A stretch of 64,000 bases of DNA, from the NCBI GenBank assembly GCA_009746045.1, contig RPFO01000165.1:6765036-6829035 (forward strand). Direction: 5' to 3'. Under the pieces are notes generated by a model. That model did not search any database. It worked only from the letters and a program-made list of their open reading frames with translations, and was not told where the DNA came from. Shown here in pieces: positions 5,348 to 24,761 of the stretch. Source of the stretch: Mesostigma viride (taxonomy: Eukaryota; Streptophyta; Mesostigmatophyceae; Mesostigmatales; Mesostigmataceae). Both the position numbers and the translations under genes were made by a program. How positions within the stretch are numbered: position 1 is the stretch's first letter; each line of letters begins with the position of its first letter.

Positions 5348-8300
5348 GCTGCCCAATTTGTGAGCGCTTGTCGGGCACTGCGCCTCCTGCCTTCCCTTCA
5401 CCGAACTCCGGTGGAGAAGAGAGCCGCCGCCGTGTTCACGGCCACTGTGTCCATTGCAGGTGAGGTGCCGAAGAATTCTGTCTACCGCTACTAGCAAACT
5501 ATTGATAAGAACTACATACTTGCAAGGGAGAGCTGGCGCGGCGTTCATGGCCGCCGTGTCCATTGCAGGTGGGGACGTGTGCCCGACAGGTGGGTCATCT
5601 TCACCGGTAGTCACGAAATCAGAACATAAAACCCTAAACATTTGCAGGAGGAAACCGATGCCGGATTCACCCACACCGTGTCCATCCCAGGTGGGGAGAG
5701 GTGCACAGCAGATAGTCCGGCTGGCACTAGCTAAGAGGCGATGAGATACGAACAGTTGAATATACTACTACTACTACTACTACTACTACTACTACTACTA
5801 CTACTACTACTACTACTACTACTACTACTACTACTACTACTACTACTACTACTACTACTACTACTACTACTACTACTACTACTACTACTGCTACTACTAC
5901 TACTACTACTACTACTACTACTACTACTACCACTACTACTACTATGGCTAATAGGCAAGCGGCGATGACATACGAACAGTTGAATATAACACCACTACTA
6001 CTACTATGGCTAATAGGCAAGCGGCGATGACATACGAACAGTTGAATATAACACCACTACTACTACTATGGCTAATAGGCAAGCGGCGATGACATACGAA
6101 CAGTTGAATATAACACCACTACTACTACTATGGCTAATAGGCAAGCGGCGATGAGATACGAACAGTTGAATATAACACTACTACTACTACTACTACTACT
6201 ATGGCTAATAGGCAAGCGGCGATGAGATACGAACAGTTGAACATAACACTACTACTACTACTACTACTACTACTACTACTACTATGGCTAATAGGCGAGC
6301 GGCGATGAGATACGAACAGCAGACATCAGCTGACGCTGTCTTCACATGATGTCCCCTGGCGGGGTAGGTCAGCCTTAGGGATGTGCGGGGTGGCACGCCC
6401 CATAATATAATAGCGCGAGTGTGTGATTTCCAGTATAGTGGTTGGGGTTGGGGGTAACCCAGGCCAGGTGGCCCAGTACTACTTTCTCGGGTTGGTTCGA
6501 GACTAGGCTTCGCGAGGGCCACCCCTCGTGACAAGGGGTCGCTTTCCCAAGTTCTAGGAAACGGCCGGAGGCTTGACCAGCATCGCAGGCAGGTATTCAA
6601 ATTTAAAATTTTTAAGTCTTTCAAGGAAGGAAAGGGCAGGTATTCCGTGCAGGTGGGCAAGCACTAAGAATCACCTGGACATCCCTGCACCGCACCCAGT
6701 CATGTGATGCTGTATGTGTGCTTTCTTACTGTCTGTGCACTGTGCGTTGCCGCACGCAGAAACATCCCATGGGGTTTAGGAAATGAGGTTGGCAACTTAA
6801 GTGTCATAAAGGGGGGATTTACAACCTTGATGATTATTCCCACCGATGCCCCCATGCTGTGCCGTAGTAGGATCCTCGCCTTGGCGCTTCCACAGACATG
6901 GCTACGGTCACGGTCAGCAGCACACTACGGCTTGCAACTTGATTGTTCATACCCACCGCCCCATGCTGCACAGTAGTATCCTCGCCTTGACACTTCCACT
7001 GACATGGCCACTGGCATGTTTGGCCATGCGCTGCCGCATGCATGCTTGCCCGATCCTCTCCGTGCACTAGTGTTCCTAGTAAGGGGTTTTACTAGTGAGG
7101 GCTTTAATGGACCCTTGCTGGGAACACGGATCCGCATGCATGCTTGCCTCACCCTATGCACGCATGCGTGCTTGCCTCAGCCTGCGCACATTGCTTGCTT
7201 GGTGGGTGTCACTTTCCAGACATGGCCACGGGCATGGTCCGCAGCAAGCACACGACGGCGTACAACTTGAGTGTTCTTACGCCACCCTCCCATGCTATGT
7301 TACATCGGTGCATGGGTCCTACCACAGACATGGCCACGGGCATGGTCCGCAGCAAGCACACGACGGCGTACAACTTGAGTGTTCTTACGCCACCCTCCCA
7401 TGCTATGTTACATCGGTGCATGGGTCCTACCACAGACATGGCCACGGGCATGGTCCGCAGCAAGCACACGACGGCGTACAACTTGAGTGTTCTTACGCCA
7501 CCCTCCCATGCTATGTTACATCGGTGCATGGGTCCTACCACAGACATGGCCACGGGCATGGTCCGCAGCAAGCACACGACGGCGTACAACTTGAGTGTTC
7601 TTACGCCACCCTCCCATGCTATGTTACATCGGTGCATGGGTCCTACCACAGACATGGCCACGGGCATGGTCCGCAGCAAGCACACGACGGCGTACAACTT
7701 GAGTGTTCTTACGCCACCCTCCCATGCTGTGTTACATCGGTGCATGGGTCCTACCACAGACATGGCCACGGGCATGGTTAGCAGCACATCACTGGATTTC
7801 GCCGACCTCCCCACACCGATGTCTGCGGACCCGCTCGCGGCCCCCGAAGAGGAGGCTGAGGTGCAGGTGGGTGGCGGGTGACATGCCCTAGTGGGTGGGT
7901 GGGTGGGGGTGGGTGGGTGGGTGGGTGGGTGGGTGGGTGGGTGGGTGGGTGGGTGGGTGGGTGGGTGGGTGGGTGGGTGGGTGGGTGGGTGGGTGGGTGG
8001 GTGGGTGGGTGGGTGGGTGGGTGGGTGGGTGGGTGGGTGGGTGGGTGGGTGGGTGGGTGGGTGGGTGGATGGGTGGGTGGGTGGGCGGGTGGGTGGGTGG
8101 GTGGGTGGGTGGGCGGGCGGGCGGGCGGGCAGGTGGGTGGGCGGGCGGGCAGGTGGGTGGGTGGGCGGGCGGGCAGGGGGGTGGGCGGGCGGGCGGGCGG
8201 GCGGGTGGGCGGGCGGGCGGGCGGGCGGGCGGGCGGGCGGGCGGCAGGCGGGCGGGCGGGCGGGCGGGCGGGCGGCGGGCGGGCGGGCGGGCGGGCGGGC

Positions 8301-24761: not shown

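Follow-up and report, generated by a model that had tools for sequence, protein, structure and literature searches.

What does it mean when the sequence across a splice junction is found again, in degenerate form, within the adjoining intron? The question is raised by a kinesin-like gene of Mesostigma viride, a streptophyte green alga by its taxonomic lineage, at positions 5348 to 24761 of the stretch analysed here (64,000 nucleotides of contig RPFO01000165.1, hereafter the window). An earlier note on this DNA listed such copies, which we call echoes, at ten donors and six acceptors of the gene. It held that the copies keep AG or GT, that no described family behaves in this way, and that tandem duplication anchored on splice junctions, or alternative splice sites gained and lost repeatedly, would account for them. 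The mean intron of M. viride is reported as 1141.9 bases, the second longest among the compared species, and 30.1% of its intron space as repetitive (PMC6947507). Here, we describe the echoes of this gene, compare them with 169 introns outside it, and consider their origin.

Introns, scoring and simulation

In the window gene, echoes were scored by alignment of 120 exon and 20 intron bases of a junction, and an echo was counted at a score of at least 15. The assembly (440 Mb, 2243 contigs) was searched for kinesins. A 704-residue stretch from one of its other kinesin genes matched the protein jgi/Mesvir1/11257 at 100% identity along its full length, and the hit ranked next at 48%. The family search listed 129 exon matches, 120 of which were used; the remaining nine comprised second places of the same gene (five on C622, one each on C805 and C1104) and two weak matches at C1107:3.21 Mb. 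Among 35 contiguous kinesin exon pairs, six without sequence and one without a GT-AG candidate were excluded. An intron wrongly placed within an open frame (C1:12716337) was taken out, and five junctions were added later. The HMM-supported set contains 32 introns in other kinesin genes, placed by exon pairs, reading frame and GT-AG borders; together with 92 and 45 introns from a gene finder, it makes up the 169 introns outside the window gene. All of these were gathered irrespective of echoes, and the 45 form a later check set. Nearly all of the 169 lie in kinesin-matching genes, and six lie elsewhere in the window. The gene finder was trained on kinesin exons and the window gene, and was tested on the window gene only, itself part of the training set; it recovered 12 of 13 donors and 11 exons exactly at both ends, and called one spurious exon within a simple repeat.

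The simulations assumed uniform tandem duplication, with wholly exonic events purged, introns decaying neutrally and exons constrained. They were run at five rates (one of them zero), in eight settings, in three settings with 1200 introns each, and in seven with units from real arrays. In this last, real-unit simulation, unit lengths and copy numbers came from the detected arrays, whose median period is 26, and density was matched.

The window gene

The gene model (5348..24761, + strand) comprises 14 exons with a single open frame of 717 codons, and every intron is GT-AG. It begins at exon 5348-5459, and the 5′ part of the gene lies outside it. The exon ends given in the earlier note are those of this model.

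Exons 1 to 5, + strand: 5348-5459, 7760-7866, 9466-9646, 10650-10765, 12277-12529
Exons 6 to 10, + strand: 14729-14839, 17329-17489, 18028-18162, 18867-18977, 19743-19907
Exons 11 to 14, + strand: 20650-20901, 21685-21865, 22874-23024, 24644-24761 (stop)

A kinesin-like identity of the predicted product is plausible but weak. Its top match among solved structures was a KIF18A fusion (E 0.0057). The Pfam search of the product gave no family above the cut-off, protein searches with the gene as query gave no match, and the genome-wide kinesin search gave none for the window contig among the matches listed.

The introns of the gene are repeat-rich, with very long 4-base arrays at 7907-8647 and 11366-12027. 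Elsewhere in the window, an 11-base repeat (CACACACACAG) occupies 45781-47627 with 168 copies and 100% matches (1.8 kb). By eye, the open frames at 26813-29671 and 58441-59678 resemble putative LINE-type reverse-transcriptase pieces, and that at 63107-63673 on the minus strand resembles a putative adenylate/guanylate cyclase catalytic domain.

Echoes at donors and acceptors of the window gene

The best copy of the donor 45-mer in its own intron surpassed all 60 shuffles at 11 of the 13 junctions (z 6.3 to 26.9). Ten of these 11 donors also outscored all 12 swapped junctions by a margin of 4 or more, and the remaining one, 7866, did so by 2. All ten donors named in the earlier note hold up (5459, 9646, 12529, 14839, 17489, 18162, 18977, 19907, 21865 and 23024); each has one to four echoes at a score of at least 15, including one or more that extend to the junction. 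Donor 7866, which had not been named, is a weak case within the same range. At donors 10765 and 20901, comparison of the donor 45-mer with its own intron revealed no echo. At a score of at least 15, fewer copies were found than given before at 18977 (three, not five) and at 19907 (two, not three). The donor echoes are as follows.

5528..5574, + strand: donor echo of the exon 1 end, junction at about 5569, 83% identity
5643-5696, + strand: second, more diverged donor echo of the exon 1 end, 70% identity
9713..9751, + strand: donor echo of the exon 3 end, 82% identity
12499..12870, + strand: series of donor echoes of the exon 5 end, junctions at about 12620, 12773, 12814 and 12855; an 86-bp array, then a 41-bp array
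14803..14975, + strand: tandem duplication across the exon 6 donor, 95 bp, 1.8 copies, 98%
17544-17568, + strand: donor echo of the exon 7 end, ending 8 nt before the junction, 96% identity
17648-17677, + strand: second donor echo of the exon 7 end, 80% identity (the pair spans 17544..17677)
18192..18334, + strand: two donor echoes of the exon 8 end, 82% and 85% identity
19030..19466, + strand: three donor echoes of the exon 9 end, 78%, 71% and 75% identity
19886..20095, + strand: 90-bp array across the exon 10 donor, echoes at 19976-20015 and 20068-20095
21923..22049, + strand: two donor echoes of the exon 12 end, 81% and 84% identity
23013..23062, + strand: 26-bp duplication across the exon 13 donor
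23362-23412 and 23462-23499, + strand: further donor echoes of exon 13

The exon 5 echoes at about 12773, 12814 and 12855 carry GC in place of GT, and a third, weak echo of the exon 12 donor lies near 22615. In the 13 introns of the gene, four tandem arrays span a donor and one spans an acceptor.

Seven of the 13 acceptors surpassed every shuffle and every swapped junction. The six acceptors named in the earlier note fared unevenly: 14729 and 22874 are clear, the latter with six echo alignments, but the other four are not. Acceptors 12277 and 9466 scored no better than swapped junctions, 19743 is marginal (13 versus 12), and at 20650 the intron side is copied but the exon side is not. Acceptor echoes at 7760 and 18867 were absent from the earlier list.

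13731..14660, + strand: acceptor echoes of the exon 6 start (14729), at about 13731, 13841, 14449 and 14604, 71-87% identity
22598..22712, + strand: acceptor echo array of the exon 13 start (22874), 23-25-bp units
7217..7786, + strand: tandem array including the exon 2 acceptor (exon start 7760), 108 bp, 5.3 copies, 99% alike
18735..18770, + strand: acceptor echo of the exon 9 start (18867), 91% identity

The 108-bp array at 7217-7786 takes in 27 nt of exon 2, and more diverged copies lie near 7002 and 6896. Its unit equals 36 codons, and one open frame runs through all copies (7108-7878) into exon 2; use of an upstream acceptor would therefore add 36-residue repeats in frame, and the array could be a coding length polymorphism.

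Frequency of echoes in 169 introns

Echoes were present at 48 of the 169 donors and 23 of the 169 acceptors outside the window gene, whereas the swapped-intron control gave 6 of 662 pairs at either type of junction. Exon-internal 110-mers were copied in 2 of 56 cases. With 32-base windows, exon ends at donors were copied in 33 introns and exon starts at acceptors in 14; exon-internal 32-mers yielded copies in 0/138 and 0/139, and the reverse-complement control of the 32-mers in 0/169. The 45 check introns alone gave 6 copied donors, 2 copied acceptors and 0/32 exon-internal copies. In the same test, 10 of 13 donors of the window gene had an echo, compared with 27 of 124 elsewhere. Thus, the window gene is an extreme example of a general pattern, picked by the author of the earlier note. 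The shuffles, the swapped junctions and the 169 further introns demonstrate that the echoes are real and above chance, as had been claimed.

Pure chance and low complexity are excluded by the shuffles, the swapped introns, the masking of 1-6-base repeats and the reverse-complement control. Whole-exon duplication was likewise rejected, since the echoes contain just part of the exon.

Donors exceeded acceptors: introns discordant between the 32-base tests of exon ends and exon starts numbered 28 versus 9 (p = 0.0026), and recent junction-spanning arrays numbered 13 at donors versus 1 at acceptors. The kinesin paralogues L032 and L035 have one 70-bp donor-spanning array in common, located at the same exon end; the 13 donor arrays therefore represent about 12 independent ones, and the shared array was either copied with the gene or is older than the gene duplication. 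Tandem arrays occur throughout, with 120 in the 169 introns and their flanks, or 0.91 per kb of intron. Among introns of at least 412 nt, those with an echo in the first 400 nt had a median length of 901, versus 659.5 for those without (p = 0.007), which fits, but does not prove, duplication as a source of intron growth.

Structure and decay of echoes

The youngest echoes are simple tandem arrays running from the exon into the intron (e.g., 14803-14975), and these junction-spanning arrays support the earlier proposal of tandem duplication across splice junctions. In L032, the array is 97% alike across the end of a motor-domain exon, and its unit repeats exactly once and then decays. In L044, an 83-bp unit (3.5 copies, 96%) consists of 28 exon bases followed by intron, with a first spacing of 88. 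The intron half also matched (z > 2.5) in 12 of 24 first echoes, as tandem duplication demands. The other 12 gave no clear intron-side match; L033, for example, is 92% alike across the exon end and splice site, with no match beyond. Such one-sided matches probably arose as the exon was held constant while both intron copies changed.

Matches that end at +5 to +8 had suggested the insertion of a fixed module, the exon end plus GTGAGT. This was dropped as the main account because young echoes, one of them with an indel, read as tandem duplications, although half of the first echoes still lack the clear intron match.

The authentic junctions appear to be retained and the exon frame intact, as judged from the open frame across the 14 exons of the window gene. 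At two array-bearing donors elsewhere (C2189:671600 and C1502:245345), the kinesin profile supports both predicted flanking exons.

Junctions compared with exon and intron sequence

The earlier note had named a comparison that would decide against it, namely that intronic copies are no more frequent for junction sequence than for exon-internal or random sequence. In the 169 introns, junction sequence was copied far more often than exon-internal sequence, but its advantage over random intron sequence was only modest. Random intron 32-mers had downstream copies in 36/326 cases in 124 introns and 8/167 in the 45 check introns (44/493 together), and upstream copies in 52/323 and 20/167 (72/490 together). 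The copy rates were thus 0.09 downstream and 0.15 upstream for intron windows, 0.20 for donors and 0.08 for acceptors, and the rate for intron windows was half to three quarters of that for exon ends. Set against the 983 intron windows, which are non-independent within an intron, donors had 1.8-fold odds (33/169 versus 116/983, p = 0.009) and acceptors did not differ significantly (p = 0.24). In the 32 HMM-supported introns, the rate was 0.36 at the exon end, 0.11 at intron positions 0-199 and 0.23 beyond, and none of eight simulated settings reached this ratio of exon end to intron. The 92 gene-finder introns showed no exon-end contrast (0.21 versus 0.13-0.22). In the window gene, random intron windows were copied in 13/35 and 9/36 cases.

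The near absence of copies from exon interiors is a contrast that purging of exonic duplications would predict. The proposed anchoring on splice junctions, in contrast, is not established, since intron windows are also copied and the null models disagree on the donor excess.

Null models of duplication

In simulations with units of about 70 bases and an array density of 0.95-1.45 per kb, exon-end windows were copied at rates of 0.17-0.19 and intron windows at 0.14-0.26. In 1114, 1139 and 1124 introns, respectively, the long-unit simulation yielded 84, 91 and 69 arrays across donors and 68, 75 and 76 across acceptors, which corresponds to 10.4-13.5 donor and 10.3-11.4 acceptor arrays per 169 introns; 13 and 1 were observed. 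The real-unit simulation predicted 4.2-6.3 donor and 4.7-5.8 acceptor arrays per 169 introns against the same observation, and 6.1-9.3 exon-end and 6.6-7.9 exon-start echoes against the observed 33 and 14, while overshooting the intron copies (0.165-0.199 versus 0.089 observed). Neither model fits fully. A placement null with arrays anywhere, applied to 45 introns, gave 5.6 expected donor arrays versus 6 observed, and 5.5 expected acceptor arrays versus 1. The placement null that replaced it, in which exon sequence is confined to the first unit, gave 2.66 expected donor arrays versus 13. An excess of donor echoes over uniform duplication is therefore possible, depending on the assumed unit lengths and null, and we do not claim it.

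The recent donor-spanning arrays reach 10-32 nt into the exon in 13 of 13 cases. For the six with a period of at least 55 (two of them paralogous), the long-unit simulation places 24-37% of reaches at 37 nt or less; the real-unit simulation places 62-79% at 32 nt or less. Judged by the real, mostly short periods, the short exon reach is only mildly unusual. Both it and the bias of donors over acceptors stand under either null model.

Origin of the echoes

We think it probable that the echoes survive from tandem duplications of small size (about 25-150 bp) which happened to span junctions, of the type called “mirages”. Small tandem duplications would arise throughout this repeat-rich genome and be of various ages. 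A duplication inside an exon would alter the protein and be lost. When a duplication crosses a junction, the original junction would stay and the second copy would become intron; the copy would then decay neutrally while selection holds the exon constant, so that old copies would remain recognizable mainly on the exon side. Several results speak against this reading: half of the first echoes lack a clear intron-side match, exon ends in the HMM-supported introns are copied far more often than nearby intron, all 13 donor arrays have a short exon reach, and uniform duplication with real units predicts fewer donor arrays and exon-end echoes than were observed.

The donor bias may be explained in the same framework. 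In a duplicated donor, the original would stay upstream, and if it is still chosen the message would be unchanged. A duplicated acceptor, in contrast, would place a full competing acceptor with its AG upstream of the real one, where it would often be taken first. Donor copies would outlast acceptor copies because the upstream original donor is probably still used, while a duplicated acceptor competes. From general knowledge of splicing, we infer that the donor bias is a splicing filter.

The strongest competing explanation is duplication anchored on donors, in which the constant exon end acts as an immortal template that re-seeds unequal exchange, or breaks during transcription fall preferentially on exon ends, and introns lengthen at their 5′ side. 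It draws on the 13 donor arrays, more than expected from random placement or from the real-unit simulation, on the 1.8-fold odds of exon ends over intron windows, on the short exon reach of all 13 arrays, on the overdispersed echo counts per donor (variance/mean 3.34), and on the greater length of introns with an early echo. However, the longer-unit simulation yields about the observed number of donor arrays, and the left ends of arrays are crowded within the initial 140 bases of the intron as well (7.0 per 33 nt, versus 13 in exon positions -40 to -8). Furthermore, when the nearest echo was compared with the farthest, it resembled the exon more closely in 18 introns and less closely in 9, with 4 ties (p = 0.12), so that an ordered ladder of echo ages is not shown, and the acceptors lack such an excess, with 14 of 169 copied and one array. 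We consider this explanation unlikely. Its specific form for M. viride, that exon ends are constant templates which repeatedly seed duplications at about 10-35 nt on the exon side of the 5′ splice site and that introns grow from the donor side, is a tentative suggestion that we hold doubtful. If it is true, growth at the donor side would leave a graded series of the exon edge and contribute to the long introns of the species.

It is very improbable that the echoes are functional, as alternative or decoy 5′ splice sites under selection. Many echoes retain GT and a good donor context, and many globin units of lancelets are described as keeping AG/GT (PMC3087553). GT was kept in 14 of 18 readable echoes of the window gene, where similarity predicts 11.8, and in 85 of 106 elsewhere, where the similarity of the exon part predicts 78. 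The claim that copies keep AG or GT is therefore true for many of them, but roughly as often as overall similarity would predict. The offsets of the nearest echoes showed no preference for multiples of three (13/48). Both GT retention and frame offsets look neutral, with no sign of selection for use. The suggested gain and loss of alternative splice sites is accordingly unsupported, with GT decaying at about the pace of its surroundings.

Finally, it is hardly credible that the introns were born from a duplicated exon piece with AGGT, the echo being a fossil of the original 3′ end (Rogers model, as outlined in PMC4974935): AG|GT occurs at several echo junctions, and in the window gene the nearest echo lies 88-109 nt from the donor in 7 of 11 cases, but in young arrays the bases that follow the echo GT repeat the beginning of the intron, and the nearest echoes occupy the 5′ part of introns that are much longer.

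If the echoes are, as we favor, remnants of chance duplications across junctions, each copies a coding edge and its splice site, apparently free of selection. They are frequent enough, at donors and acceptors alike, for statistics, and may constitute a fossil record of intron growth. They would allow measurement of the tolerance of duplicated donors and acceptors, of intron lengthening, and of the decay of an unneeded splice site. The bias of donors over acceptors is a direct prediction on splice-site choice.

Comparison with known systems

Repeated sequence tied to introns is also a property of introner elements, which are reported to insert copies into many genes (PMC9860276). Unlike introners, the echoes match their own intron, as the few echoes in swapped pairs demonstrate. 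In the RdRp gene of potato, an intron is described as gained through a boundary-crossing duplication (PMC4974935), and in Drosophila cases such a duplication is described as turning a copied exon piece into intron (PMC2891723). As in these accounts, the duplications in M. viride cross an intron-exon boundary and the exon copy becomes intron; unlike in them, there is no sign of a new intron here, and existing introns receive the copies.

The earlier statement that no described family behaves in this way was mistaken, since the “mirages” of amphioxus match (PMC3087553, PMC3902484). These are described as tandem repeats across exon-intron boundaries, at the 5′ or 3′ ends of exons (PMC3087553). 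The reported units measure 10-72 bp in Adh3 (Canestro 2002, cited in PMC3087553), and 150-160 bp in BflGb6 and 157 bp in BflGb9 among the globin genes (PMC3087553); PGBD5 is a further case with imperfect units (PMC3902484). RT-PCR suggests that splicing is undisturbed (PMC3087553), mirages that duplicate splice sites are reported to leave splicing intact (PMC3087553, PMC3902484), and degenerate repeats in one amphioxus intron were taken as support for a route of intron gain (PMC3087553). Among the matches listed by our literature search, no boundary duplications were reported in any alga, which does not prove their absence.

As in mirages, the units in M. viride span the exon-intron boundary (13 donor arrays and 1 acceptor array in 169 introns) and often keep AG/GT. 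The lancelet cases are gene-by-gene reports of mostly well-matched repeats, PGBD5 being imperfect, with units of 10 to about 160 bp. The echoes of M. viride, in contrast, belong to a streptophyte alga, affect more than a quarter of the donors sampled, have in many cases decayed to 70-85% identity, are biased toward donors, and are known from sequence. Judged on this basis, they are to be placed with the mirage-type boundary duplications, in a distant lineage in which they are common in the sample, and their interest lies in their frequency, their donor bias and their short exon reach.
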